Shown piece after piece: positions 12,343 through 43,979 of a stretch of 64,000 nt of DNA. The DNA lies in NCBI GenBank assembly GCA_030374765.1, contig JARGXX010000109.1, forward strand, positions 434,001 through 498,000, in the 5' to 3' direction. The DNA comes from Agarophyton chilense. Lineage: Eukaryota > Rhodophyta > Florideophyceae > Gracilariales > Gracilariaceae. The notes under the pieces were generated by a model. The model saw only the letters and a program-made list of their open reading frames with translations. It ran no database searches and was not told where the DNA came from. The translations under genes and the position numbers were made by a program. Every line of letters starts with the position of its first letter. Position 1 is the first letter of the stretch.

Positions 12343-12935
12343 TAGAGCAATCACCAAAAGGGGGAAATACCTCTCGGATGTTCGAGTCTCGCTCTCGGGA
12401 GGAGGGGTAACTCAACGAACAAGCCTTCGTGCCACCGATGTGTGGGTGTAAGACCACAGTGGTTCAGGCAATACCTACGAAAGTGATGAACCCAGGAAAA
12501 GGGGAAGAAGCGAAGGGGGATCCAAGGACAAGGATATTCCGTGGACAACAGCAAAAGGTAGGGCGGAAATATGGGGCGAAATAGGACGCACGAACAAGCG
12601 TACAGACCTATGAAAGGGTTATCCACACTGGATAAGCAAAACAAAGATGGGTGAAAACAACCATGTACAGGGGCGTTGTACTGTCCTAAACACATAAAAA
12701 TCAACAAAAGAAAAAAACACACAAACAACAATGGTACAGTGACGCCTGAGCTTCCCAAGGGGATAGATTAGACAAACCGGTCGCGTTTCCGCCCGTTAAG
12801 AGATGGAGACTCGCGTAGGCGACATCAACTAGATCCAAAGCACTTGGTTACCATTTACTTAGTGGTAGCGATGGCGGTGAAGCTATCGCGTAAGTATAAA
12901 CTAGACTTTAAACTACACGTGTAGACTGTAGCTAA
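12343..12935 (-). repeat. Gypsy-1 family LTR fragment, inverted
   Basis: The reverse complement closely matches the 3' two-thirds of the Gypsy-1 LTR (compare 16840-17425 and 27870-28454). Shared landmarks include GTCTACACGTGTAGTT, CACCGCCATCGCTACCAC, TCAGGCGTCACTGTACCAT and the terminal part with CATCCGAGAGGTATTT. The first quarter of the LTR is missing and no matching internal sequence lies beside it, so it is a 5'-truncated solo LTR. It joins the DIRS relic on one side. Confidence 0.8.
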
Positions 12936-16609: not shown

Positions 16610-17425
16610 TGTAGAGGAACGCGTTCACGTATAACCGGTCGGGGCACCATTCATATGCCATCCGATATATCGGGGACCACGTCACTTCATTTATGAGTAA
16701 TATTAGTTTTTAGTATTTTACACACCTTAAAAGGTATGTTAGTTAAGTCTCTACAGTAAACCCGTAGTGGAAGGGTGGACGTGCAGGGTTGGGTTTACCC
16801 ACATGATACGTGTATGGACCAGGGTTGGTTTGCATTACTATAGTCTACACGTGTAGTTCACTGTCTACAAAAGACTGAAGCGATGGCTTCACCGCCATCG
16901 CTACCACCAAGTAAAAGGTAACCGAGTGCTTGGCTCTAGATTATGTTGCCTACGCGAGTCTCCATCTCCTAACAGGAGGAAACGCGACCGATTGGTCTAA
17001 TCTTGCCTCTCGGGAAGCTCAGGCGTCACTGTACCATCGTTATTGGTCTTTTTCTTTTTTTTGTTGGTTTTCCTTTGTTTAGGACAGTACACTGCCCCTG
17101 TGTAGGGTTGTTTTCACCCGTCTTGGTTTCGCTTTTCCAGTGTGGATACCCCTTTCATAGGTCTGCACGCTTGGTTGTGCGTCCTATTGCGCCGTACATT
17201 TTCGCCCTACACTTTGCCCTTGTCCAAAAGATATCCTTGTGCTTTGATCCCCATTTGATTCGTCCCGTTTTCCTGGGTTCCTCATCTACGTAGGTATTGC
17301 CTGAACCACTGTGGTCTTACACCCACACATCGGTGGCACGAAGGCTCGTTCGCTGAGTTACCCCTCTTCTCGAGAGCGGAACTCGAACATCCGAGAGGTA
17401 TTTACCCGTTTGGGAAAGCTCCACA
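16610..17425 (+). repeat. Gypsy-1 5' LTR
   Basis: Begins TGTAGAGGAACGCG, aligned to TGTAAAGCAGGGCG at 27002, and ends at CTCCACA. Shared landmarks with the 3' LTR include TCGGGGACCACGT, ATGAGTAATATTAGTTTTTAG, GATACGTGTATGGACCAGG and CAGGCGTCACTGTACCATCGTTATTGG. Confidence 0.85.
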
Positions 17426-19640: not shown

Positions 19641-20892
19641 TTGTTGCGGAATCTTTGAACCCGAAAAACTAGACATGGGAGTCTCCCCTAATGGAGAGGC
19701 GTCTTCTAAATTGAATTGGAAGACACCAGAGGTGTCACCGCCTCACTCCCCAGTCACAATCTTCACAAGTACTATGGCTAAAACCGACGCTGAATCGGAA
19801 CACCAAGCAGTTTTACGTCGTCCGTGGATACGGTTTATGAATCCTCGTACTCCGGATAACGTTCTTGTGATGAACAAGGGTAACTACAAGGTCTATGAAA
19901 ACCATGGCCTATCACACCAGTTCATGGTTAGACAGTTATCTGTTTTGGATACAGGAGCCGCGCCAAACTTGATAAATTCTGATATCATACCGTCGACACT
20001 TCGGAATAATATTTTCTATGATCCAGGAATGGATATCGCCGGTGCGAATAATAATCCGTTCCATACGATTGGAAACATATCTCTCGCAGTGCGATTGGGT
20101 ACCTATTTGGTTCAGTTAGACTTTGTGGTTTGCGACTCCCTCGCTGCACCCGTGATACTGGGTCATGATTTTTATGATCGATTTGTCGAAGCAATTCGTC
20201 CCAGAACCAGAACCGTTGTGATGGAGGACGGATCCACGATTCCTATCGTAAGGAAACCGCAGAAGCGGGAAATACAAAACAAAGTTCCGTTACCGGTTGC
20301 CCAGGAATCTCCTGACAAGGACCCCCGCTCAACGCGTCTCGAGGTTGCGAAATCGATTACGATGCACCCAGAATCACAAGTATGGGTTACAGTGACATCC
20401 CAACAACATGGACTACGTAATGTACAACCCTTGGCCTCTTTGTATACCAAGAATCAACTCGCTCTGGTAGATGGTCTGGTTCTAATCGAACCCGATACTC
20501 CTTTCAAGGTTCTCATGGCCAACTTCGGTAGAACGAATCAATGGTTAACGAAGAATCAAACACTGGGCTCAGTACTCCCATACCCGACCGCTATCCTTCC
20601 GACAAGGATACGGGGTACCGATGTTCTCGGAGTCCTCGAACCTAAGGAGGGGGAGGAGAATGATGATGTTGAAAGAAAACGTGTAGAGCCCGGGTTCCAA
20701 TATTCGGATACACAACCGACACAACCGAAGGAGTCGGATCAGCAGACTTTGCTGCCTGATACAGATGATGTTGATCCTATGAAGGAGTTGGAAAATTTAG
20801 ATCTGGAGTATGTCTCAGAAGCTCATCGTGAGAAGTTAAGAGAAATGTTGAAGGAATTTAGCCCTTTTTGGATTGTTCCCTTGGAACAATAG
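19641..20892 (+). pseudogene. Gypsy-1 protease region and start of RT
   Basis: Continues in the frame opened at 19069. The conserved linker GVSPNGEASSKL is followed by the aspartic protease with LSVLDTGAAPNLI (catalytic D-T-G near 19945) and VILGHDFYDRFVEAI (the flap-end I-L-G motif) at about 20155. The frame then passes through a hydrophilic connector and reaches the beginning of RT (YVSEAHREKLREMLKEF) before a TAG at 20890. The protease keeps its catalytic triad. The reading frame must shift to continue into RT, which overlaps from 20868. Confidence 0.8.
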
Positions 20893-22211
20893 GAATCACG
20901 AAACACCGTATTGACTTGCTTCCAAATACTCGGCCGATCTCTCAGCACCCTTGCAGGGCGGAACCGAAGGGTCGGCAAGAAGAGCAGGCTCAGGTTAAGA
21001 AGATGTTACGCGCAGGCGTTATAGAACCAACTCAATCGCTTTGGGCGTCACCTCTTGTCTTAGCTCCGAAAGCGGGTGGATCGTGGCGATTTTGTATTGA
21101 TTATGGACTCTTGAATGCAGTTACAGTAAAAGATGTATACCCAATCCCTCAAATGGATGAATATATCGATTCGCTTGGAACTGCGACTGTGTTCACTACC
21201 CTTGAGGCGAATTGCAGTTATTGGAAAGTTTGTGTTCGAAAAGAGGATCGTAATAAAACGGCTTTTGTCTGTTATCAAGGCGTGTATCGGTTCAACCGAA
21301 TGCCGTTTGGCTTAACGAATGCCCCTGCAACGTTTCAACGTGCAATACGTATCCTATTAGCCCGCTTTAAGTAGAAAGCCATTTTTGTATATTCGGACGA
21401 TATCATCGTATTCTCCGACAACATGTATGAGCATCTCTCCCATGTTAAGGATGTTATGAAATCACTGCGCGACGCAAGAATCAAATTGAAGCTGAAGAAG
21501 TGTAAGTTTTTTACAGATTCGGTCAAATATCTTGGACAAATAATCCAACCCGGACGGCTATCAATCGATGAAGATCGAGTCAAGTCCTTGAAGGAAGCGA
21601 AATATCCGACGAATAAAACGGAACCCCGATCATTTCTCGGCTTGTGTAATGTGTATCGCAAGTTTGTCCCGAATTTCGCTGATGCTGCGAGTCCCCTAAA
21701 TGAGCTCTTTCGGAAAGAAAGACCAGTTGAACTGGAACCCTTCTGAGGCGCTCAAGTTTCTGCTTTCAATTCCCTTGTGGAAGCTGTGATGTCTCCACCA
21801 ATATTAGCGCTTGCAAGTCTTCGGCTTCCGTTTGAAGTTGATACGGATGCAAGCAAAGACCAATTAGGTTGTGGGCTATTTCAGACCTTAACAGAAGGTG
21901 AACGACATCCATTAGGATACTGGTCTCGCAGTCTGAACGTTTATGAACGTAATTACTCGGTCTCAGAGAAGGAGTGTCTCGCGGTCGCTTGGGCACTAGC
22001 GACGCTCCGGCCATATCTTATGGGTAACCATTTAAAGGTCCACACTGACAATTCAGCCCTCCGTGGGCTTATGGAAATAACCGAACTATCAGGACTCCTC
22101 ATGCGTTGGCCCCTCCGATTGGCGAAGTGTGACTTCGTTTTTATTAACAAGAAAGGTAATCTGAACACGAAAGCAGATGCGTTATCCCGCTTTTTCAGTA
22201 CGAGAATCTGA
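20868..22211 (+). pseudogene. Gypsy-1 reverse transcriptase and RNase H
   Basis: Three open pieces (20868-21374, 21423-21746, 21777-22211) give the RT palm and thumb and RNase H. Visible motifs are ASPLVLAPKAGGSWRFCIDY, then FTTLEANCSYW (the family has T-L-D at this place, so the first catalytic Asp has become Glu), then MPFGLTNAPATFQ and VYSDDII, the Y-x-D-D active site, which is intact. A TAG at 21372 interrupts just before it. The thumb reads KLKKCKFF and YLGQIIQPG. RNase H has VDTDASKDQLG, SEKECLAVAWALA and LKVHTDNSALRG, ending in NLNTKADALSR. Another stop lies at about 21744. The enzyme would be inactive. Confidence 0.88.
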
Positions 22212-23460
22212 TGGCAGCGCCGAAAGAACATCGGGTGACGTATGTGACGATATACTGGATGCCGAACCTTCAGGAGCCCCTGACGGGTTCATTCGTACCA
22301 ACAATTCCTGAGGCCATGATCCGAGAACAACAAATGAAACCTTTCTCTACACAGATCCGTTCTCGCTTCAATGGAGGACCAAAAATTCCCTTTCGGATAC
22401 ATGGACAGGGATATCTGGCTCGAAATGTCGAATCGAACCCCCCAACTTGTGGATCCCCATTCCTTACAACAAATTGTACTCCATCTTGTAAACTACTCGA
22501 AGTTGAGCTCACATCCTGGAGGAAGAAAAATGTACTTGACCCTTAGAAGGGATTTCTACTGGCCTGCTATGGCTTTTGGCTTCTATGCAGTACGCCGTTC
22601 TTATACAGAGTGCGCCAAAAATGACGTGAAGTTACGTAAAAACTCGAAGAAGTTGAAGCTATGTCCCGCACGGGCGCCCCTTGGAATTCGTGGCTATAGA
22701 ACTTCTAGCTGAAGTAATCACGACTCCTCGAGGAAATCGATATCTGTTTATGATGACAGACCGCTTTTTAATGCTCCTAAGAACAGTGCCGCTTAAATGG
22801 ATTACAGCTTATACTGTGGAAAAGGCCTTTGTAACTCACTGGATCTTCGTCTACGGTCCACCCGTAAGTCCGATCTCAGATATTGGCTCACAGTTTATGT
22901 CAAAGTTTTTTAAAGACGTGTGTCGCATACTCGAAATAAGGAACCTGTTTACTACAACCTACCATCCTCAAACGAATTTTCAGGTAGAATGGTTTAATCG
23001 TACGTTGCTGAACGCGTTACGATCCAATGTCGCGGATCATCCCAGGCAATGGGATTTGTACACAGACGCGGTAACGTATGCGTATAACACCCAGGTGCAT
23101 CGGGTTACCTCACTTTCACCATTTGAGTTGGTATTATCACGAACCTCACCACCAGTGGCTATTCAGGCTCAACCGACGCTCTCCGCGTTCCCCTCACCGA
23201 AGTTATATCGGGAATCCTGGAAGAAAGGATTCAGACAATGGTGCCAATGGCCGAGAAAGAAATAGACAAGGCCCAAGCCGCTTGTAAGCGTAATTTCGAT
23301 GATCGAATCCGCAAGCCGTTACCTCAGATAGCGGTTAACGATTTCGTATTTTTACATAAGGAATACTACAATCCTGAAAAGAAAAAATGACACAAGCGCT
23401 CACCGATTGCTGACGGACCGTACCGAGTCATCTTATCGATGAGAACCCAGTGGTATTGGA
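22212..23460 (+). pseudogene. Gypsy-1 integrase
   Basis: A zinc-finger region is visible at 22440-22670 (SSHPGGRKMYLTLRRDFYWP, then ECAKND), with one Cys of the HHCC set replaced. The core follows at 22681-23265. The first catalytic position reads VAIELL where the family has Asp; the second is intact in PISDIGSQF; the Glu is intact in HPQTNFQVEWFNRT. The C-terminal part around 23330-23430 has the GPY/F motif (ADGPYRV) after KRNFDDRI and NDFVFLHKEYY. A frameshift lies near 23262 and a TGA at about 23387. It would act in element insertion but is dead here. Confidence 0.85.
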
Positions 23461-24990
23461 AGTTGACAAAAGCACGAACGAGTTTCTCTTGGTAGAGTGA
23501 CCAGAGCCCCACCGTTAACAACGGACGTCGTACTACAACCTACTACCTTCCCCGGTAATGGGAAATCCTGAACGGACAGTTCGCCTTCGCGACCAGAGAT
23601 TCTTCCGCAGATAACCCGCAGCTTGTCTGACCTACCAAAGCATTCGGAAACTGTCATTACAGGCTCTTCTACCTCAAAGAATAAATCTCGGATAACACCG
23701 ACAATTGTCATTAGGCTGACCCCACGTACTGAGGTAATCACGACTCCCGTGAACCCTCCTAAGGAGGAGGAGGCTACAGAAGAAGATGCTACAATAATTG
23801 TCCGGCGATTACCGGGAGTCCCACTGACGAAGATACAATTACTCGCAAGTTGGAGATGACTGACCACTCCATAGATGAAAAACCCGCACCTGAACGGAAA
23901 CCTGAAGGGATAACAACGGAAACTATACCTCTTGTAGAGGAGAAGACTACACTGGTCAAGACTCCTCCGTGGGGAATGCATGAGCGCACTCGTAAACCCA
24001 AGGAACCGCAGACGTTAAAAGAAGTGACAGCCGATCCGGATGCTCTGATATCCGTTGATCTCGACAAGGAGGATAAGGGAAACGCAGAAGCGTAGAAGAG
24101 AAGAAGATCGCCATTGCGGGGAAAGATGAAGGAAGTTTATGAATCAAACCAGGTTGGTACTGCTTAAGGGAGGAATTCACATGTACTTTACAGCACAACG
24201 CTGCAAAACAACGGCGCACTTCACAGTACCACTTTGAGACGTTATGCCACCCACGCGTAAGCCGCAAACCGTCATCAAACTGTTCTCTGACTTGACAGTG
24301 CAGAAAAGATGCCCTGGATGGTACTGTACTTTACAACCTCGCTGACACACGGTGTCGTGGCCCGGCGAATGTTTATGCCAAGCCAATGACAGTCGCTTTG
24401 ACCCTCTGGGTATTCCGTCGCCCTACAAAAGGAGTGTGAAGGACGAGATTCCCCGCCATGACGGATTTTTCAATCGCAAACGGCATTCTGCTGTTTTCAG
24501 GAAGACACCGCTCATCGGTTTGAAGTCCAATCCCCGCGGACCTACTCTGGGTTAACTCAAAATTGCCAGAGTTTCACGAAGAGCCAGATGGTGATCGACT
24601 TGGTCGCTTGTAGCGAAAGTTACAATTACTCCGTCACCACGGTTCTCGACGAAGTTGCGATTGATCCAAACACGTTCCGAAGTTGGAAAGCCTCACTTGA
24701 GGCTCGCGCCTAAACTCTTTTGAGTACTACAAAAGATCTGTAGACCTTAATACGTCATGAGGACAGAAATACCCAAGGGGTATACCCACAGAAGTGTGTG
24801 GTGGATCACGTTGTTCGTCACGAAATCACTTCAACTGGAGACTATCGTTTTCAAAATCCGATGTTATGGATACAATCCTGCCGAATATACTTGGGAACCT
24901 GTTGCACATTTACCGAGATCCAAAATTTTATCCTATCACCGAAGAACCGGTACACCGCTACCTTCAAACTTGGATTGTGCCCATGTTGGG
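23461..24990 (+). pseudogene. Gypsy-1 linker and C-terminal chromodomain
   Basis: After integrase comes a Thr/Pro/Glu-rich linker in shifting frames (23623-24095, with IVIRLTPRTEVITTPV and KPAPERKPEGITTETIP). The chromodomain spans about 24795-24985 with a frameshift in its middle: VDHVVRHEITSTGDY in one frame, then YNPAEYTWEPVAHLPRSK and ILSYHRRTGTPLPS in the other. The same domain in Gypsy-2 reads through without a break. In chromoviruses such domains bind histone marks and steer integration into heterochromatin. A GAAGTC-rich short tandem repeat follows at about 25008-25070. Confidence 0.75.
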
Positions 24991-25978
24991 TAAACCGAAA
25001 CGGTAATGAAGTAATGAAGTCAAAGAAGTCGAAGAAGTCAAGAAGTCGAGAAGTCGAACAAGTCGAGGAGCACAGAAGTTATTATGAAAAGATGATTTCT
25101 ACAACTACTCAAGTCACCTGTCCACTAGATGGAGGTGAGTCTATCTTCCTTTGCGACAACTACGCCCCAGTGGAAGGACCAGCCCCACTTTGGTAGGCAC
25201 CAGCATTTAGTTGATAGCTCTACGCCGCAAGGGATAGAAGCTCTCCCATACCAACTACGTTGGGAGGGATTTCCTCACCAATTGATTGGAGATGAAGGCG
25301 CATCGCCGCAACTTGCGGATCAACCGGACTCCATGCGAGCGTTGTATATCTCTAACCCACCGTAGTATCCGTATCGCCACTCGAAACGGCTACTATCATA
25401 GGAACAGTCCCTCCAGAGGCGACAACATCCTGGTTATCCAAGTTGGTATCATCGCTATCGATGGTAACCGGAGAGGTGTCAGAGTATAAAAATCCAGTTG
25501 TTTGTCCTGCTGGGATGCTCCGAGTCAGTTGGCGCAACGCCCCCGCATGGGCAGTGGTCGTCACCACACCCTCCTATGGGTCGTAGTACATAAAGTCACC
25601 AGCACCTTGATGCCGGCGTCCCGGAGACCGATCATACGGAGAGGCTTGTCCGTGAGCGCAGTTCGAAGGAGGGACAGTATCCCAATCGACACTGTCGATG
25701 ACATTCAGCAAGTAATAAGTTTCACTACAATTCTAGTCAGAGTCCAATGCTGGGTAGAGACTAAGTGCTCGAATTGTTGACCGAAGGGCCATCGGAAGAC
25801 ATCACAATCGGTTCTGATCATAGGCCTCCGAAAGGATGAATGCCGCAAAGAGGAATGCCCATTCGGCCAAGACCAAGTTCAAGTATCCCGAGTGCTCATC
25901 GGCTACCAATCTTGAACATACGTAGGTAAGACACGGAGGAAGTTCTACATAATACCCACGGGGTACTTCGACCTGATT

Positions 25979-26870
25979 CTACCATCTGGGAAAGGGTACG
26001 TACTTCCCTCGAAGAAAAAGCGGATTGAGGTGTTCAACCTCAACGTTCGGATACGGCAAGAAACACCCAAATCGGGAACGAGCTTTTCGCTTGAAGTGGA
26101 TCATCTGACAAAAGGATCTCTGAGATTGTCTCGATATATATCGAAATTTCGCTCGGAGAATCAGTCTCCTCCAACACATCATGTGTGGAGAAAGCTTGTG
26201 AACACGAGTACCAGGGTACTCTGTTTCCGAATAGGCAGCTACGTTATCCCCATAGGATATTTCACCGTGAGTTCGGTAGAAATCCAAATCACAGTTCTAC
26301 TCCAACGGTACAGGAGAGTCACCGAAAGTACGGTTGAGTCGCTGAAAGGCCAGACGCGCCATATCGTACCTCGCATCATCTAGACATTCATTTCTGCAGC
26401 GTAGGAGCGTATTAGGGTCAACAGCGATGCGGGTCCTCTAATCGAAGGAACGGACAATTTGAACCGGAAGTTCACCCGGAAGGTACTCATCCGCCACAAT
26501 AGGATTCGATCAACTAATTGTTGAGAACCATATTGGGATGGAACCGGGGGGTCTGGAATAGAGGAAATTGTCCTGAAAAGTATCTCGCACCACCAGCGAT
26601 TTGCGCGATATCCAATCAGATTCTTTCGCTGAGACGAACATCGCTTGAGGCGAATTCCACACGGAAGCGTCGAAGAGGTTATTCACGAAAGGTTGCGAAG
26701 TATCTTGAGGAAGCAGAGTTGATAGGAAAGCACTGTGGTAATGTGATACCGCGGAGCTCGGCGCACCGGTAGGGACTTGATTGTTGTTGTTCATTCCGTC
26801 TGGAAAAGATTGACCAGGCTGCCATTTAGCAGAAGAGGAGATGTTGGAATTACTCGAGCTCAGTGAGTCA
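25979..26870 (-). pseudogene. Antisense ORF relic in Gypsy-1, homologous to the Gypsy-2 LTR ORF
   Basis: On the minus strand, opposite to the element, a decayed protein can be read from about 26870 (Ser-rich start, then MNNNNQVPTGAPSS from 26794) to 25979. Its C-terminal half aligns residue by residue with the ORF inside the Gypsy-2 LTRs: EYLPGELP against EMLPGDLP, RTRIAV against RNRIAI, RTHGEISYGDN against RTRGEMSYCDR, and MCWRRLILRAKFRY against LCWVRPILRAELRY. Two in-frame stops (one TAG where Gypsy-2 has Trp) and an internal deletion show it is dead. No known domain recognised. Homology at the protein level between two diverged elements argues that this strand was once under coding selection. 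Confidence 0.75.
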
Positions 26871-26987: not shown

Positions 26988-27001
26988 TAAGGAGGGGGAC
27001 A
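26988..27001 (+). other. Gypsy-1 polypurine tract
   Basis: TTTAAGGAGGGGGACA directly precedes the 3' LTR start TGTAAAGC at 27002 and has the purine run expected of a plus-strand primer. Confidence 0.7.
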
Positions 27002-28454
27002 TGTAAAGCAGGGCGTGCGCGTATATTTGGTCGGGGCACTATTCATATGGCGTCCGATTTATCGGGGACCACGTTGATGGTTTTATGAGTAATATTAGTT
27101 TTTAGTATTTAAGACACCTTAGAAGGTATGTTAGTTAAGTCTCTCCAGTTGTCGTATATTGGCAAAAGGTCTGACCTTTGAGGTTTTCAATATACTACAC
27201 TGAACCTGTAGGTGATAGATGCGCGGGATCATCGGCCATGCAGCTCCGGGCGAGCTACCATCTAGGTGTTGTCAGCCACGTGTAGTGTTGACATGTACCT
27301 TCTGGTTGAGTAATTGTGAGTACCTGTAATTCTAATTATACCTATTTTAGTACAGTAGTGGAGTGGCCACCTGGCACTGTAGCCAGTGCTGGCCAGGTCT
27401 CTGACACTAGGTCAGAGACCGTGCCTTGCTGGCACGTCCCGGGTGATCTGGAGAGTGCAGTCCACTGCATATAAGGAACTGCACCTCCCCCATTCTTATC
27501 TAATAAAGACAGGTACCACTTGGGTTACGACTATACCTTTTGGTTCATCGTTTCTCAACTACCACACAGGCTTTCCCGCGCGTCGACGCCTACCATCGTT
27601 CACCTACACGGTATAGGCTAGTTGCCCCGCCGTTTGCCCTTGCGGGTTTTCACGGTGCCCTGTTACCATCGAGGTTTATTACGTCTACCTTCTAAGGTTG
27701 AGCGTCAACACGCTCCCTACGGTTAAGTGGCACCACGCTCCCGAGACAAGACAGTACCATACCCCAGAGGTGTTTGTACGACAACAGTAGCCCCGTAGTG
27801 GACAGATGGACGTGCGACGCTGGGGTTACACGCATGATACGTGTATGGACCAGGATTGGTTTGCACTATTACAGTCTACACGTGTAGTTCACTGTGTATA
27901 ATAGACTTAAGCGATAGCTTCACCGCCATCGCTACCACCAAGTAAATGGTAACCGAGTGCTTGGCTCTAGTTTATGTCGCCTACGCGAGTCTCCATCTCT
28001 TAACGGGAGGAAATGCGACTGGTTTGTCTAATTGAACCCCTCGGGAAGCTCAGGCGTCACTGTACCATCGTTATTGGTGCGTTTCTTTCTTTTGTTTGTT
28101 TTCCTGTGTTTAGGACAGTACACTGATCCTGCATAGGGTTGTTGTTACCCGTCTTGGTTTCGCTTATCCAGTGTGGATACCCCTTTCATAGATCTGTACG
28201 CTTGGTTGTGCGTTCTATTGCGCCGTACATTTTAGCCCTACACTTTGGCGTTGTCCACGAAATATCCTTGTCCTTGGATCCCCCTTTGGTTCTTCTCCTT
28301 TTCCCGGGATCCTCACCTGCGTAAGTATTTCCTGAATCGCTGTGGTTTTACACCCACACATCGGTAGCACGAAGGATCGTTCGCTGAGTTACCTCTCTTC
28401 GTGAGAGCCGGACTCGAACAACCGAGAGGTATTTATCCATTAGGGATTTCTCTA
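27002..28454 (+). repeat. Gypsy-1 3' LTR, interrupted by a solo LTR
   Basis: Aligns with 16610-17425 in two parts, 27002-27149 and 27789-28454. The interruption is the solo LTR at 27150-27783. Subtracting it and its duplicated 5 bp leaves about 814 bp, essentially the length of the 5' LTR. Confidence 0.85.
27150..27783 (+). mobile_element. Solo LTR (634 bp) of an unrelated retrotransposon
   Basis: Begins TGTCGTA and ends TACGACA, a 7-bp inverted terminus with the TG...CA ends of LTRs. The flanks are CCAGT (27145-27149) and ACAGT (27784-27788); the uninterrupted 5' LTR of Gypsy-1 has ACAGT once at this position, so a 5-bp target was duplicated. Inside are a TATA-like CATATAAGG near 27468 and an AATAAA at 27502-27507, the promoter and polyadenylation signals expected in an LTR. 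No internal element sequence remains. Confidence 0.85.
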
Positions 28455-29184: not shown

Positions 29185-31310
29185 CCCCCAGTAACTGCAA
29201 AAAATGTGGGTCACATTAATTACGGTAAGATATATCATCTCCTAGAAACCACTATTATTGTGGGCCACCTGTTCACTTGTACCACATTATTTAAGGTGCA
29301 AAGGCAAATAATGTTGGCCAAATTAAAAATTTAAGACCCAAATGATGTGGGTATCGTTTCACTCTGTCTCCCGAATCAGTCGCTACATCGCATTTACGCC
29401 ACCACTTTACCATCAAAGTGATCTCGATGTTTAGCCATAATTTCTTGAAGCTTGGGGAAAAGCTGGCGCTCCTCCCATATCCCGTTCACATTCAATGATA
29501 GACCTGTCCTAATCATTGCCTTCCAAGCATACGTTAACCCATCAACATCTCTTTGACGATTGACATCACGAATAGCAAGCATTGCTAACCTCAAAAGTAC
29601 GCTTTTCCAGGATTCTTCAGTTTTCCTGATGCCCCCCAAGCCCCCTGTGCAATCTTGTTCATCTTGTAGTTCTCCCATCTCGTATTCCAAGCATTCTTGA
29701 TTTTCTGAATGACGAACGAATCGGCCGGTTGCACAAGATGTGTGGCATTGGGGGGAAAGTATCTAATCCCAGTATGAATGTTTTCCAGCGCTTTCGCAAG
29801 AGGGATTGTGAGATTGTGGCCACTGCAATTGTCTACAAACAAAATTCTTTTTCGATTGTGCGGTAGTCTCGAAATAACTTTCTGTTCTCCCAACCGCTGC
29901 GGCATTACAACTGTGTCCACCCAGCCCTTCGGTCCGCACCGGTACGAAACATAAGGCACGTCATCTGGGACACCCTTGATAGGATAACTGTGGTTTTTGT
30001 TCTGGAATACCATGAACACTGGTTCTATCCTTGCGTCACGTCCTCCACTGATTCTGACCACCATTGTCATTCCCGCCCCACCAGACACGACATCGGAGTA
30101 CTTTACCTCCTTTTCCCCACAAAAGCCTAGAGTTCTTCCGTTGTCCATGTTTATCACGAAATGTGTTTCGTCTGCATTCTCCACATCGTCTTCATTTATC
30201 TGTCCGCTGCGGAAAGCTCTGCAAAGATTTCCAAGATGAAAAGCTACCTCTTTATGAATCATTTCATCCTTCTGTGGTGATAAAAGATGCTTTCCTGTTT
30301 GGGCCCTGCTAACAATTCGATATTTTTCCTTTAAGTTTTGGATCCACCGTCGCGTGATACGTTGCGATAGAGGTCTGTTATCGGAAGGCTCGAGCAAAAA
30401 CTTGTGGCCACTCTGATTTTCCGAAGTGGAAATCAACTGCAGTGCAAGGATTTCTAGAGTCCTCCAGTTGAATTTGACACCCAACTTCCCAAGGCGATCG
30501 AATTCTGCGAGCATGTACAAATGTAGCGCATTGATCCACAATCTCGTTTTCCGTCCTTTTCCGCACAATGCCTTCAGATTTACCCTTTTCAAACCTTTGT
30601 ATGTTCCTCTGGTTATTGATTTACTCACACCGGAAGATTTCATAGTCTCATCTTCGTTAGTGTACTGTGCTCTTGAGCGCCAAAGGCGGATGGCCTTTTG
30701 CAGATTGGCCTTCTGGGAGCTGCAAAACAAATGCTGAAAACGTATCACTTCTTTTGATATAATGTGTCGTGAACCATTTATGTTTGACTCGTTTACCATC
30801 CAGGCAACAACTTTGGCGCGATCAGCGATGGTGAGCACGTTATGGACTCTTCTTCTCGTCACGAGTGTGCTGGCTTTTTCAATGGGTGAACTTGTAGTTT
30901 GGTTAGGGATATTAATCGGTGTTTCAATTTGTGCGGAGAGTTGGTTTTGTTCGTCGTTGACTGCGTTTCGTCGCTGTACACTACGTTGAAATGCTGCGAC
31001 GATTGGTGATCCACTCGTAGGCACTGCCATTTGGGGAGAAATAGATAAGTGTTGGGAGGAGTCGATGGGTAGTATCAGTCACAGGAGAATCAGAACTGAC
31101 AATCGTGTGGTTTATTGAACCATTCGCAGGACTTTCGCGCCTTTTTCTGAGCACTTGAATTTCTTGTTGAACGTCTCACATGTGGCACTTACGGTTCAGC
31201 CCACATTAATTTCGCCACGACCAGGTTTGCTTGCACCTTTAATAACGTGGGCCACAATAAATCTGTTACCACACTATTTGTGCACCCGCATTAAATGCAG
31301 TTACTGGGTG
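29185..31310 (-). mobile_element. pogo-like DNA transposon with TA target duplication
   Basis: Perfect 13-bp terminal inverted repeats CCCAGTAACTGCA (29187-29199) and TGCAGTTACTGGG (31296-31308), with two more terminal bases (CC against CA) before a TA dinucleotide on each side (29183-29184 and 31311-31312). Subterminal words (TGTGGGCCAC, TTTAAGGTGCAA) also recur in inverted orientation. One minus-strand transposase gene fills the inside. The total is 2126 bp. 28913-29182 outside the left end holds nothing assignable. Confidence 0.85.
29394..31030 (-). pseudogene. pogo/Tigger-type DDE transposase with one frameshift
   Basis: The main frame runs from an ATG at 31030 for 479 residues. The N-terminal third is basic and should hold the DNA-binding HTH (a W-x-R-R-W word near residue 226). 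The catalytic domain of DDE_1 type has Asp 287 in VENADETHF, Asp 400 in LFVDNCSGHN (the D-N-C-S-x-H signature of pogo transposases) and Asp 437 in HLVQPADSFVIQKIK, giving DD36D. After residue 460 the frame shifts in a C-run near 29628-29640; the other frame continues with RKTEESWKSVLLRLAML to a stop at 29394. A single homopolymer indel therefore separates this gene from a full-length reading of about 545 residues. It could be a sequencing error or a real recent loss. Confidence 0.82.
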
Positions 31311-33089: not shown

Positions 33090-33958
33090 CTGTCTGTAGG
33101 ACAATGCCCCCAAGGGGGAAAACCTACGAAGACGTCCGGATCTTCCTCTCACGAGGTAACCGGCGCGGTAGAGCCCTCCCAGGGATCGGCGCGCAATGCC
33201 GGGTGTAAGCCGGAGCCGAACCGTCGCGACGGGCGCAGGGAGGCTGAAAGAAGCCGAGAATATCCGCCGAAGCGGTGCTTGCATATCCTCGGAGGAGGCA
33301 AAACCCACGAGAGTGGCGAGAACGACAGGTGTCAGTGCGAGCCGCAAGAGCGGGAATTGCCCAATGAAGGGGAGGAAAAGTGAAGGAAAATGGGAACGGA
33401 GGCAAGAGGGCGAGGTTGACCACGAGTCGCAAGAGGGGACTCGGGAATAGCCGGCACTGCCGGGTGTAGCAAACCGTATACACGGGCGGAACCACGAAAG
33501 TGGGAATAGATACCCAACACACGAAGGCTGCTTGAACGTCCAAGGGGGTTGGGAAGCCGTGCACCACGGGAAATCCCTCCGTAAGGAGTTGTATATCCGC
33601 GCAGGCGGTTCGACCAAGAGCCAAGATCTGGAAGACCAAGATCACCCTTGTTGGGGAGACTTTACTGGACCGGCGGCCGCGAGGCTGGCGGCCTAAGTAC
33701 TGTAGTCACCGTAGAATAGAATAAATAAAGTCGATCCTAAATAGCTAAATGTCCATCTAACAAAGGGGCCAATCTGGCGGCCACGTGTGGCGCGGGCGCT
33801 GCGGCCACGTGTATGGAACCCGGTCCCGCCGGTGCATCACCGGCGTTCCGGCCATCGCCGTGAAAACGGATTACTCCTACTCATAACGAGGTTGCACGCC
33901 GGAGGCTCCAGAAAAAACTGAAGTCCCCAAAAACCTCCCTGGAGGACGTTGCTCTTCA

Positions 33959-33976
33959 TATCCCCCCCCTTAAGAC
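33959..33976 (-). other. Former polypurine tract inside the Gypsy-2 LTR
   Basis: On the minus strand CTTAAGGGGGGGGATATG parallels the Gypsy-1 polypurine tract TTTAAGGAGGGGGACATG both in sequence and in position, next to the start of the antisense ORF. A copy also occurs in the other LTR near 43115-43130. It marks where the LTR began before it was lengthened. Confidence 0.55.
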
Positions 33977-34005
33977 AGGGCGAACACCTCGAAGAGGAAG
34001 TCGGC

Positions 34006-34767
34006 ATGGCAGCTCGTCATGATAAGAGCGCGTCCTACACCGGGTCTCCGGAAACCAACACACCTTCACCAAGGATCCCACGCACGCTCTTCGCATCCGA
34101 TTCCAACCACAGCACACCAACACGCACCATGTCCAACCCCGACCGTCATAACACATCTGCGACTTCCGCCCTTGGCGGTTCCACCGGCTTCCGGTCCGCG
34201 ACCCACCCTGGGGATGTTACCAATCTCGCGTACGAAGACCGCCGTATTGGCGCCCGCTTTCGCGGACAGGCGGACCCACCGCAGTGGCCGACCTACGACG
34301 CCCTTGTGGGTGCAAATCCGAGAACTCGGCATGGCTCCGCGATGTTGCGGTATGCGCCTTGGTTTCACCGATTGGCTGTCCGCGACGAGGATTTGATCCA
34401 CTCCTACACCGATAATTCGGAGATGCTCCCGGGCGACCTGCCCGGCGTGGTGACCATGTCCTGGGATTGGCGTAATCGTATCGCCATCCCGGTACACCAC
34501 ATACTCCGCCGACGCGGTGAATCCTCTGCGGAGGCTCAGGCCGCGCTTGTGCGGATCGCTTATCTCAGGCACCATCGGGCGCCTTTCGAGTTCCCGATAC
34601 CGCCAGATGTCGAATTCGACGTCCACCTTTGCCGCACTCGCGGGGAAATGTCGTACTGTGACCGTCTTAACGGATTGGAAACCCTCGCTTGGAGGGGCAC
34701 ACCGATCGCTCGGCAAGAAGCCCTTTGCTGGGTACGACCGATTCTTCGGGCAGAGCTCCGCTATTAA
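34006..34767 (+). CDS. Antisense ORF in Gypsy-2 3' LTR, unknown protein
   Basis: The ORF is open from 33949; the first ATG is at 34006, giving 253 residues and a TAA at 34765. It runs against the element. The first 80 residues are Ser/Thr/Pro/His-rich and look disordered. From about residue 85 the protein looks folded, with Trp, Arg and hydrophobic residues: RIGARFRGQADPPQWPTYDA, then LRYAPWFHRLAVRDEDLIH, then LPGDLPGVVTMSWDWRNRI, then RTRGEMSYCDR and LCWVRPILRAEL. The C-terminal part is homologous to a decayed antisense ORF in Gypsy-1. No known family recognised; there is no signal peptide, membrane segment or Cys/His cluster. Transcription would start inside the LTR, opposite to the element. 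Function unknown. Confidence 0.6.
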   Translation: MAARHDKSASYTGSPETNTPSPRIPRTLFASDSNHSTPTRTMSNPDRHNTSATSALGGSTGFRSATHPGDVTNLAYEDRRIGARFRGQADPPQWPTYDALVGANPRTRHGSAMLRYAPWFHRLAVRDEDLIHSYTDNSEMLPGDLPGVVTMSWDWRNRIAIPVHHILRRRGESSAEAQAALVRIAYLRHHRAPFEFPIPPDVEFDVHLCRTRGEMSYCDRLNGLETLAWRGTPIARQEALCWVRPILRAELRY

Positions 34768-34824
34768 CCGCGGCAGTCGCGCTTAAAATTCCTTCAGAAC
34801 CCCTCCCAGAGGGCGTGCACCACA

Positions 34825-36309: not shown

Positions 36310-39300
36310 CTATTCCACTTGGGCTTTCATCACCGATGCCGGGATTCCCGTCCGCGTCCTGCGGTGATATGAAACCACTTTAGAACGTGAGAGGTGCTGC
36401 ATTGGCTCAATGGAATCCCATTCGGGACCCAACCCGTGCCAACGGACGCGATACTGTATGTAACCCTCCCGATGGTAAGAATGCTCCACGACGTGGTCGA
36501 TAACGAACTGGTCGTAGAATTTCCGGCCCTGCCGTGCCTGTGTCACAGTGCCATACTGGCAGCTTTCCGCCATCGCGTGTGGGCTACTGTGTCCGTCCCC
36601 GCAGGGGTCCACGGCTTGGTACGGCCTTTCCCTGACCTGGGTACGGATACGAACCGGTTTCTGGGAGGCTTTGACCGCTTCGCGTGGTACTTTCGCCATG
36701 GCGTCGTGACGAGAATCGTCATTTCGACGGCTTCGGCCGAAGGCCTTCCCATAGGGCAATTGTCCCAGTTTTCGGGTCGGGGAGCTTACCGAGACTTCTT
36801 GTGCAGAAACCACCCTTCGGGGGAACGCGAACTCATCCCAAAGCTGGGTTTCTGGATCGCGCTCCGCGAGTTTCCTTAGTGGAATCCGTCGCGACGGTGA
36901 TGAACTTGACGCAGGAGGCGGTTTTGCCACGGGGCGTCGTCTCTTGATGGTTGAATCGCCTCGAGCGCCTATTGGTGCATCTCCCCTGTCGGGTGCCACT
37001 TGGTCACGTGACGTGACCAGCTGATGGCTGGGAGCGCTCCGCGCCGTGCTGCGTTCCGTCTCCTCACGTGAGGGCGTGTGCAACGGCGTTGCCGGTGTGT
37101 CGGCTAGCTTCGGCGACAAAGCACCACGTCGGGCGTGCATCTCCGGCTTAACCGTGTCTCCATCACGAACGTGCTGTGACGTTTCCTGCGAATTGTCCCT
37201 CTGGGAAGCAAGGTCGTCACAAACTATCCCTCTCGAGGGTCCAACTTCACTCGGCGACGAGGTGCTTCCGTCATCGACGTGTCCGTTCTCCGGAGTGACC
37301 GGTGCGACTTCGACAATACTGTCGGGGTCAACCGAGACATTCGGAGTGTATCCGCGACTGTGCGAGCGTCCTGAACCAGTGTCAAGCGTGCTGGGTGTGT
37401 TTCTCCCGTCCTGTGCGGTGTGCTTGCCCGGCCTAGCCGGTGTGTCCTGCCGTGCAGTTGGTGTCCACACTTCCGGTGTAGTCGGCTCAGAGGATCTCGA
37501 GAGGGCCTGCTCTGTAGTGTCCAGCGTAGCTAGTGTCGACAAACCGTGACCCACGGGCTGCGATTCAAAGCTCGACGGCACAGCCGGTTCAGTGTCGCAA
37601 GCGCGAAAATTATCCTTCGAGAAGATCGCTTCGGCGAGAGATTTTCCACTTTGTGGCAAGACAACAGATGTTGAATCCCATTGGTGGGCACCATCCGACA
37701 CAAAAGCGGTAGACCTTCCCCAAAAGGGCAAAAGATCCAGAGTGGATGTTATGACTAGCGTAGTTCCATCATAACCCGGAATGTCCGGCTCCCCTCCGTC
37801 ATCTTCGACGTGTAAAGCATCCGGACTGACCCGTGCGTCCACGACGACAGTTTTGGTAACAACCGAGACATTCGGGTTTCTCTCGCACATTTGCGGTTGA
37901 TCGACATCAGATTCCAGTGTCCTGGGTTGGGTTTCCTCGCGAGGTACGGTGTGCTTGCCCGGTATAACCGGTATGTCCTTCCGTACTATACTAGTTGAGC
38001 CGTCGGACGAGATCGGCTTAAGGGAGCCGGCGAGGGCATTCCTTTCAGTACCCAGCAATGCTGTCGAAAGAGAACCGTGATTCACGGGATGCAATTGCAA
38101 AGAACCATGAATGTCTTCCAACGGCGGTGCCGGTGATGTTTCGCGAGCGCGACTAACTTTCAGCAACGACTTCGCTTCGGCGCGAGACTTTCCACTGTGT
38201 GGCGCTTTCTGCAAACCAGAATCCCCGGGGGGAGTGCCATCGTGCACAGATGCGGTAGAACTTCCTCGAGAGGACTCGGCATCAGTGGCACGGTGCAGAT
38301 GAGTGCAGGGCACGTCAGTCGACGATGCTTTCCGTCCACCAATATCCATTTCGATGTGTCCAGAGCTCCGTGTACCACCGTTATCATGACGCGACGAAGC
38401 GGTAACAGTCTCTCGACGAGAGTCAACATCCTTTTCCCCTTCCTTAGACGGAGCGGCATAGAGAGTGGTAGAAACGCCCAGCTGGCGGGGATAGACACCG
38501 CGCAGTGGCGTGAGAGAAGAAAGGCCATTCAGGCCAGCGTCCGATTGAATCGGTATATTAGAGAGTCCCACGGGTGGGTTGTAGAGCGGGAATCGCTTAT
38601 TGGCGGGTAAAGCAACCATCTGGATGGGATAGATTAGCCCTACCGTAGAAACTGGAACTTCTGCAATATGCGAGGGATTCTGAAAACCATCCTCGTTGCG
38701 AGGGGCTGAAGCATCCAGAGTTCTGTTAAATGACCCTCCTCTGCGCTTTGGGCGTATGCAGGCCATCGAACGCTGGACAGCGGAAGGCATTACTGAAAGC
38801 CACGAGTTCCAGCAACTCTCATGATCCGAACAATTCGGTAGCCCATCCAGCAATGGCTGGGCTTTGAAATTCACCAACTCAGGTGGTATCTTTCCGACGT
38901 CAGTCGTGCAGAACCGACGGTAGTCGATGACAACAATCCAAGAACCATTGGATAACTTAACCAGTACTGCTGGTGGCGACACGCACGGCAGTGTGGACAA
39001 GTTCAGCATAGACTGGGGACCTCCGACGAGATTATCCCCCTCCTCAGAGTGACCCATTCCGGTTGAACCGGTACGATCCCCTTGAAGGGTAAAGATAGAC
39101 ATGGGGTGAGGAGCAACTCTTCCAATGACTTGGATCCTAACCAGATACTGGTGTTTCTCTCCAAAGTTGGAAACACATACACAAAACGACTTGTCGGGCT
39201 CAATGTGAACCATTCCATCCGCGAAAGCGAGTTGATGCCTGTTCGACAGTGATGGTATCGGTCGAACGATTCGAGTACAGTGCTGACGAGAACTGACACG

Positions 39301-40176
39301 CACCCAAGAGTGGGACTTTGGCGGAATGCAAATCGACTCGTCGACACGAAGCTTTGTAGACTCGCGAAAAGCGGCGGGGAACTCCTGTGCAGCAGGAAGA
39401 GAAACATGCTTCTTCGATGCACGCTTCGGCGGACGGCGGACGATGGGAACAGAGGATCCATCGTCCAATTCCACACGCTTTAAGCGGGGTACAATCGCTT
39501 CGACGAAACGGTCGCAAAAATCACAACCCAAGATGAGAGGGGCGGGGACTGACTGACAGACAATAAAGTACAGCTTCACGACGCAGGGTCCTAAGCGTAC
39601 CACCAAATCGATCACTCCAACCGTTTCTTACGGGTTGTTACCAGCGTCAGCGGCGTCGAATGCTACGCCACGCCGGATTTGCGACTGCAAAGCAGGTGGT
39701 AGGGTAGATTCCACGACGAAGTTCGGTTCTGTACCTGTATCCAACACAGTGAGAAAACGCACCATGAACTTGGTAGTAAGGCCTAGGTCAGCGTAAACTT
39801 TAAAGTTTCGCTTCGCCATGACCATGACTCTTTCCGGGAACCGGTTGTGATGTACCCGTTTCCACGGTCGACGTAAAACACCAAAGTGTTCAGAGTCCAC
39901 GTCTGAGACGGCCTGTTTCCTTGAGAGGATTTTGACCGGGGAGCGAGGCGGGGACGCCTCGGGCCTCGTCAGCCTCAACTCTGAGGACGCCTCTCCCGAA
40001 GGGGAGACTCCCTCTATTCTTTTCCTTGTACAGGGTCCTGGTCGGGCGAAGGCCCGACTTCCTCGGCAACGAGTGCATGATTCCGTTGCACGGTAGCTAC
40101 CGCAGGAGCGGGTTGAGATCCACCAGCGTGGATTGGCGCTGGTGCGGCGCGTGCCGGCTGAGCCGGTTTGTACCAA
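36310..40176 (-). CDS. Gypsy-2 pol-like ORF: protease, RT stub, repeat linker, chromodomain
   Basis: One frame with a single TAA at 39628-39630. The first part (40176-39628) has GVSPSGEASSEL, as in Gypsy-1, and the protease motif LTVLDTGTEPNFVV. After the TAA the same frame runs 1101 residues from 39615. Residues 1-45 finish the protease (PLILGCDFCDRFVEAI). Residues 212-275 are an RT stub (SPPAVLVKLSNGSWIVVIDY) that stops before any catalytic Asp. Residues about 450-850 are a Ser/Thr/Pro-rich linker with internal repeats. Residues about 1032-1085 form a chromodomain (FVIDHVVEHSYHREGYIQY, RVRWHGLGPEWDSIEP). RT core, RNase H and integrase are absent. Such a long open frame in a defective element suggests it was made recently or still has a role, such as targeting. 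Confidence 0.8.
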
Positions 40177-42249: not shown

Positions 42250-43979
42250 TGTAGGACAATGCCCCCAAGGGGGAAAACCTACGAAGACGTCCGGATCTTC
42301 CTCTCACGAGGTAACTGGCGCGGTAGAGCCCTCCCAGGGATCGGCGCGCAATGGCGGGTGTAAGCCGGAGCCGAACCGTCGCGACGGGCGCAGGGAGGCT
42401 GAAAGAAGCCGAGAATATCCGCCGAAGCGGTGCTTGCGTATCCTCGGAGGAGGCAAAACCCACGAGAGTGGCGAGCACGACAGGTGTCAGTGCGAGCTGC
42501 AAGAGCGGGAATTGCCCAATGAAGGGGAGGAAAAGGGAAGGAAAATGGGAACGGAGGCAAGAGGGCGAGGTTGACCACGAGTCGCAAGAGGGGACTCGGG
42601 AATAGCCGGCACTGCCGGGTGTAGCAAACCGTATACACGGGCGGAACCACGAAAGTGGGAATAGATACCCAACACACGAAGGCTGCTTGAACGTCCAAGG
42701 GGGTTGGGAAGCCGTGCACCACGGGAAATCCCTCCGTAAGGAGTTGTATATCCGCGCAGGCGGTTCGACCAAGAGCCAAGATCTGGAAGACCAAGATCAC
42801 CCTTGTTGGGGAGACTTTACTGGACCGGCGGCCGCGAGGCTGGCGGCCTAAGTACTGTAGTCACCGTAGAATAGAATAAATAAAGTCGATCCTAAATAGC
42901 TAAATGTCCATCTAACAAAGGGGCCAATCTGGCGGCCACGTGTGGCGCGGGCGCTGCGGCCACGTGTATGGAACCCGGTCCCGCCGGTGCATCACCGGCG
43001 TTCCGGCCATCGCCGTGAAAACGGATTACTCCTACTCATAACGAGGTTGCACGCCGGAGGCTCCAGAAAAAACTGAAGTCCCCAAAAACCTCCCTGGAGG
43101 ACGTTGCTCTTCATATCCCCCCCCTTAAGACAGGGCGAACACCTCGAAGAGGAAATTGGCATGGCAGCTCGTCATGATAAGAGCGCGTCCTACACCGGGT
43201 CTCCAGAAACCAACACACCTTCACCAAGGATCCCACGCACGCTCTTCGCATCCGATTCCAACCACAGCACACCAACACGCACCATGTCCAACCCCGACCG
43301 TCATAACACATCTGCGACTCCCGCCCTTGGCGGTTCCACCGGCTTCCGGTCCGCGCCCCACCCTGGGGATGTTACCAACCTCGCGTACGAAGACCGCCGT
43401 ATTGGCGCCCGCTTTCGCGGACAGGCGGACCCACCGCAGTGGCCGACCTACGACGCCCTTGTGGGTGCAAATCCGAGAACTCGGCATGGCTCCGCGATGT
43501 TGCGGTATGCGCCTTGGTTTCACCGATTGGCTGTCCGCGACGAGGATTTGATCCACTCCTACACCGATAATTCGGAGATGCTCCCGGGCGACCTGCCCGG
43601 CGTGGTGACCATGTCCTGGGATTGGCGTAATCGTATCGCCATCACGGTACACCACATACTCCGCCGACGCGGTGAATCCTCTGCGGAGGCTCAGGCCGCG
43701 CTTGTGCGGATCGCTTATCTCAGGCACCATTGGGCGCCTTTCGAGTTCCCAATACCGCCAGATGTCGAATTTGACGTCCACCTTTGCCGCACTCGCGGGG
43801 AAATGTCGTACTGTGACCGTCTTAACGGATTGGAAACCCTCGCTTGGAGGGGCACACCGATCGCTCGGCAAGAAGCCCTTTGCTGGGTACGACCGATTCT
43901 TCGGGCAGAGTTCCGCTATCAACCGCGGCAGTCGCGCTTGAAATTCCTTCAGAACCCCTCCCAGAGGGCGTGCACCACA
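42250..43979 (-). repeat. Gypsy-2 5' LTR (1730 bp)
   Basis: Partner of 33095-34824; same length, about 20 differences, flanked on the outside by CTGTC at 43980-43984. Confidence 0.92.

Follow-up and report, generated by a model that had tools for sequence, protein, structure and literature searches.

Several LTR retrotransposons of plants carry an additional open reading frame (ORF) that lies between pol and the 3′ LTR on the strand opposite to gag-pol. These plant aORF-3R genes (maize Grande gene23, rice RIRE2, Silene Retand and bean PvRetro13) are described, in the available portions of two papers, as present in many copies and as having no known function (PMC7264820, PMC11963269). The accessible text of the first paper also reports an antisense promoter within the 3′ LTR of HTLV and non-coding antisense transcripts of LTR elements, for which a dual role is discussed (PMC7264820). 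Among red algae, LTR elements account for 17% in Gracilariopsis lemaneiformis according to the part of that report available to us (PMC5970526). Neither the available part of that report nor that of PMC12477816 mentions such an antisense gene, and none from a red-algal retrotransposon is apparent in the titles and abstract openings of the open-licence literature.

Here we describe a gene, carried in the genome of Agarophyton chilense by four diverged families of elements (G1–G4; 33–43% residue identity in the pairs compared), that is very probably a conserved protein-coding antisense gene belonging to a single Ty3/Gypsy lineage with a chromodomain. Like the plant aORF-3R genes, it is an extra ORF between pol and the 3′ LTR, antisense to gag-pol and present in many copies. 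Unlike them, it encodes a protein without TRP28 (PF04195) or any other significant Pfam domain, has red-algal relatives and lies directly beside the polypurine tract (PPT) and LTR; moreover, the algal elements bear a chromodomain, unlike the Retand type, which is not a chromovirus. Grande, RIRE2 and PvRetro13 are set apart from the algal protein by description rather than by sequence, and it is likewise by description, not by protein sequence, that Boty of Botrytis/Sclerotinia, which has an antisense ORF, is set beside the algal gene. HTLV-1 HBZ resembles the algal gene in being encoded antisense at the 3′ end of its LTR retroelement; in contrast to HBZ, the algal proteins (n=8) show neither a bZIP domain nor any other significant Pfam hit, and the antisense promoter described for HTLV is in the alga a presumed one. 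HBZ is also a much shorter protein.

Two broken copies in the window

The window (the whole stretch of 64,000 nucleotides, C109:434001-498000 of a 79.8 Mb assembly in 135 contigs) contains two Gypsy elements with the following features.

16610..17415, plus strand: Gypsy-1 5′ LTR, 806 bp (blastn to the 3′ LTR)
19663..23211, plus strand: decayed Gypsy-1 pol with protease, RT, RNaseH and integrase pieces (tblastn with pol of the third family, G3, 57–77% in pieces)
24844..24987, plus strand: Gypsy-1 chromodomain remnant (tblastn with the Gypsy-2 chromodomain, 44%, E 2e-9)
25166..26794, minus strand: Gypsy-1 antisense gene remnant with several stops (tblastn, codon-position identity, ORF list)
26989..27001, plus strand: Gypsy-1 PPT AAGGAGGGGGACA, adjoining the 3′ LTR (sequence)
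27002..28446, plus strand: Gypsy-1 3′ LTR with a 634-bp TG..CA insertion at 27150-27783
33095..34824, minus strand: Gypsy-2 3′ LTR, enlarged, 1730 bp (98.9% to 42250-43979; TG..CA ends)
33958..34824, plus strand: formerly internal sequence now within the Gypsy-2 LTR (start approximate; compared with LTR pairs L013/L078 and L014/L079)
34006..34767, plus strand: truncated antisense ORF in the Gypsy-2 3′ LTR, N-terminal 253 aa of a ~591-aa protein
36361..36507, minus strand: Gypsy-2 chromodomain, towards the C terminus of frame 36313-39615 (under the Pfam PF00385 cut-off, E 6e-4)
42250..43979, minus strand: Gypsy-2 5′ LTR

An earlier note on this DNA had reported a decayed ORF opposite to gag-pol in Gypsy-1, similar to an ORF in the Gypsy-2 LTRs, and tblastn searches of the window confirmed both its presence and the similarity (E 1.3e-17 to 1.7e-107). 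The Gypsy-2 ORF matched the Gypsy-1 minus strand at 26488-26138 (36%, 117 columns, E 1.3e-17), the full G2 protein matched 26488-25388 (36%, 389 columns, E 1e-64) and the G3 protein matched 26674-25166 (41%, 522 columns, E 1.7e-107, 349 bits), the last pairing with G3 residues 121–638; the best score of 100 shuffled G3 proteins in the window was 30 bits. Identity between the Gypsy-1 and G3 genes at codon positions 1, 2 and 3 was 0.537, 0.671 and 0.355 (490 codons). Since the remnant runs from about 25166 to 26794, its N-terminal piece having an ATG at 26794 in the ORF list, the interval to which the ORF had been assigned (25979-26870) covers only the start and middle of it. Gypsy-1 itself is a dead copy, and an old one, because its LTRs differ by a K2P distance of 0.146 with the insertion left out; Pfam searches on two pieces of its pol placed RNaseH above and integrase below the cut-off. 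The insertion at 27150-27783 is missing from the 5′ LTR and has a 92% copy in L073 (303-931), and an inverted, truncated copy of the Gypsy-1 LTR lies at 12343-12931. None of 23 Gypsy-1-like places among the matches listed has a complete frame, the longest being 586 codons with a stop inside the matched part.

The ORF in the Gypsy-2 LTR is indeed similar to that of Gypsy-1, but it is not intact, as had been assumed, for it holds only the N-terminal 253 of ~591 residues and ends at a stop at 34765-34767. Likeness to the full gene continues to 34800, close to the LTR edge at 34824, and an ordinary G2 LTR (~865 bp) would span 33095 to about 33957. A second truncated copy starts at 43161 on the plus strand in the 5′ LTR, its frame running past the LTR into the flank. 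Gypsy-2 is flanked by a 5-bp target site duplication (TSD), CTGTC, read from the sequence; its LTRs diverge by 0.011, and a comparison with G3 pol matched neither RT nor integrase in it. In the fuller relatives the gene is internal, and its location in the LTR is a derived state: what the enlarged LTR of this young, non-autonomous copy has captured is an N-terminal piece of the gene. Both ORFs of the window are fragments of a single antisense gene that is ~590–620 codons long. Elsewhere in the window, a DDE_1 transposase frame, which we take to be pogo/Tigger-like, occupies 29591-31030 on the minus strand, and a tandem repeat with a 51-bp unit occupies 1559-1813.

The full gene in related elements

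In the fuller relatives within the same genome, the gene runs antisense to gag-pol and lies between the end of pol or the chromodomain and the PPT of the 3′ LTR, a position and strand observed directly in G2 and G3. The G3 copy L069-L070 has an LTR of ~919 bp, RT, RNaseH, integrase, a chromodomain-like stretch and a 640-codon antisense frame that opens ~15 bp from the LTR, beside the PPT; its gag-like domain falls just under the Pfam cut-off, and its pol ends early, the chromodomain-like stretch lying in a different frame with a stop. Elements of G2 have ordinary LTRs of ~865 bp (from two 5′ LTRs) and the PPT AAGGGGGGGGATA at the 3′ LTR. A chromodomain after integrase, a chromovirus feature, was found in one G2 copy (C12), where an integrase match is followed by a chromodomain-like region with a stop; in the window copy the Pfam Chromo match is below cut-off. 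The single G4 copy read has a 611-codon frame whose end adjoins AACGAGGGGGGTA/TGTAG, and in all four families a TTAA-purine tract followed by TG stands beside the gene in the copies read. Between the LTR and the probable start codon there would be ~47 nt in G2 and ~85 nt in G3, whereas the first in-frame ATG seen in Gypsy-1 and in the one G4 copy is ~170–210 nt away; some G2 copies, such as L013, have an in-frame ATG further upstream, within the LTR. The 5′ LTRs from two elements ruled out the reading that the ORF crosses the junction of LTR and internal sequence in all G2 elements.

Across 30 G2 loci, 26 (including the reference) retain the full form as far as the locus extends, and four (L009, L010, L012, L015) break mid-gene at the same point. 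Internal sequence from the 5′ end of the element stands on the left in four of the 30 (L010, L032, L033, L036) and is absent in 26; because 23 of the 26 full-form copies are without it, most full-form G2 copies are 3′ ends. Three G2 copies (L071, L072 and L076, from C68:3137272 on) form a tandem array with 9197 bp spacing; they are identical over the 3.0 and 4.9 kb compared, are missing the integrase stretch and have an open antisense frame. L073 and L074 (C113) are one insertion by their 5-bp TSD CAAAA. It combines a 5′ LTR of the enlarged window type with the 3′ end of a full-gene copy, and the mosaic is suggestive of template switching or conversion.

The gene is present in high copy number. 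A G2 query scored 90–100% identity at all 150 places scored (the best 150 of 1286 candidates), which marks these as repeat copies. The Gypsy-1 fragment, over the best 150 of 1104 candidates, returned the 23 Gypsy-1-like places (60–99%, that of the window included) and 127 places of G3 (46–49%). With the G3 query, 43 of 71 copies among the matches listed (the best 71 of 1874 candidates) are stop-free in the match, and with the distant protein P0006 as query 24 of 107 places among the matches listed, at 37–39% identity, were taken as G4, one copy of which was read. Linkage to pol follows the expected order: among the matches listed, 76 of 148 G3-like antisense places have RT on the expected opposite strand, one is otherwise and the remainder have no listed RT close by. 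Of 150 RT hits among the matches listed, 76 are followed within 8 kb by a G3-like antisense ORF on the opposite strand, one shows another arrangement and 73 are without a listed antisense ORF. An Integrase_H2C2 search placed none of its 150 places among the matches listed near the 24 G4-like places.

Searches returned ten related proteins (P0001–P0010; for P0002–P0010 the best 8000 candidates were scored), including an annotated protein of Gracilariopsis chorda (P0003) and four of A. chilense (P0007–P0010) that are 86–94% identical to G3; both species are Gracilariaceae. The antisense protein has no significant sequence match in Pfam, NCBIfam, PHROGs or PDB, the sole Pfam hit among eight proteins scanned at E<=1 being a kinase at chance level (E 0.11). 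The statement in the earlier note that no described family has this sequence therefore stands for the protein within the libraries covered here; the arrangement, by contrast, has been described in plants and fungi, as the available text of PMC7264820 relates. Membership of TRP28 is not supported, since PF04195 (Transposase_28/TRP28) had no match in the eight proteins at E<=1; a search of the genome with PF04195 scored one candidate (C115:1611170), below cut-off and outside the listed antisense-gene places. An env-like protein is not supported either: unlike the env-like sense aORF, the algal ORF is antisense, and none of seven proteins has a strongly hydrophobic segment (maximum Kyte-Doolittle score over 19 residues 1.41). 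Derivation from gag lacks support as well, two frames of a single G3 copy giving hhalign probabilities of <=0.1. No relatives appeared in phage records, queried with the N-terminal G2 piece, or in prokaryote species genomes and viral contigs, each queried with two short peptide patterns.

Selection on the antisense frame

Constraint at the protein level is seen between families. Over a 370-codon core, G2 and G3 share 0.43 of residues, with pN 0.403, pS 0.759 (saturated) and nucleotide identities of 0.546, 0.662 and 0.330 at codon positions 1, 2 and 3; the other five frames are 0.18–0.38 identical, every one with stops in both sequences, so that no rival frame is open in both families. The order of positions (2 > 1 > 3) recurs in G2–G4 (0.544/0.562/0.281, positions 1 and 2 being close) and in G3–G4, and third-position identity of the gene is 0.28–0.36 across family pairs. 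With a long frame kept between families and saturated synonymous sites, these patterns bear out the proposal of past selection on an antisense-encoded protein. They do not bear out the accompanying premise that the elements had otherwise diverged strongly: the pol proteins of these families are 57–77% identical against 39–43% for the antisense protein, which is not unusually conserved. As pol third positions between the same families are 0.34–0.47 identical, and yet the pol proteins reach 57–77%, the antisense protein evolves faster than pol.

Copies within a family behave differently. The within-family set comprised 24 of the 30 G2 loci (four short-type and two identical array copies were dropped) and eight G3 copies. 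Here dN/dS, to which the earlier note had looked for evidence of selection, was 0.84 in G2 (24 copies, codons 254–591, p=0.17) and 0.77–0.78 in G3 (p=0.13 and 0.6), and these values of 0.77–0.84 in unselected segments, not clearly different from 1, lend no support; the segments used for copy selection gave 0.54 and 0.44. The measure discriminates poorly, since one sense-strand frame holding 19–21 majority stops scored about as low (0.53–0.96 by frequency class, 0.22 in a class of 3 sites). With near-neutral values and such poor discrimination, support for coding comes from the comparison between families and not from the copies of a single family. We read the near-neutral within-family dN/dS as post-insertion decay.

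It is improbable that a host gene was captured once and has hitchhiked without benefit to the elements: one annotated G. chorda protein, P0003, would fit such a history, but the gene is found in four families at a depth where synonymous sites are saturated, the best 150 G2-query matches in the genome are all repeat copies at >=90% identity, and the sequence libraries named above gave no significant match to the protein. Marginally less probable still is that the antisense transcript itself matters, through dsRNA or transcriptional interference, the open frame being incidental. The non-coding antisense transcripts and dual role discussed in the accessible text of PMC7264820 speak for this, as does the near-neutral within-family dN/dS; a function of RNA alone, however, would not hold ~600 codons open in G2, G3 and G4, and would not yield the 2 > 1 > 3 order with third positions at 0.28–0.36. 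That the sense strand is what is constrained, through RNA structure or an env-like or other unrecognised ORF, with the antisense frame as a by-product, is hardly credible, because over the whole gene the 411-codon sense frame opposite the G2 gene contains majority stops (3 in G2, 8 in G3), the other sense frames have 11–21, no open sense frame was seen in G3, and the sense frames fall short of the stop-free antisense frame in G2–G3 identity (0.18–0.38 with stops in both, against 0.43).

The product and its possible role

The conserved protein, expected to be of roughly 65 kDa, is arginine-rich and lysine-poor (R 38–63 and K 2–12 per protein) with 8–17 tryptophans (seven proteins). AlphaFold models were poor (mean pLDDT 47.9 and 49.9); a fold search of the PDB with the second of these matched nothing, and no inference was drawn from it.

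The antisense mRNA would most likely be transcribed from a start on the opposite strand, in the 3′ LTR or next to it, as suggested by the probable start codons 47–85 nt from the LTR in G2 and G3. Its soluble product may then act as a regulatory or accessory factor in element expression, nuclear entry or integration. A comparable regulatory or accessory role is proposed for Grande GENE23 and described for retroviral HBZ in the available portions of the literature (PMC7264820, PMC11963269). The product probably helps or regulates the spread of the element; for a regulatory role in the element's cycle as such, we regard the chances as evenly balanced. A fuller reading, which we offer tentatively and as rather less likely to be right than wrong, is that the gene represents an undescribed family at least as old as the splits among the four element families and several genera of Gracilariaceae, an HBZ-like, LTR-driven antisense regulator of red-algal chromoviruses that may be so useful in cis that integrase-deleted tandem copies keep it whole.

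In flowering plants and in a fungus, LTR elements with antisense accessory genes are already known, the origin and function of these genes being unsettled. A protein that bears no detectable resemblance to theirs and yet holds the corresponding position in red algae would point to more than one origin of the arrangement. Repeated origin would in turn imply that an antisense gene next to the LTR is generally advantageous, a proposition for which the red-algal gene would provide an independent test system.
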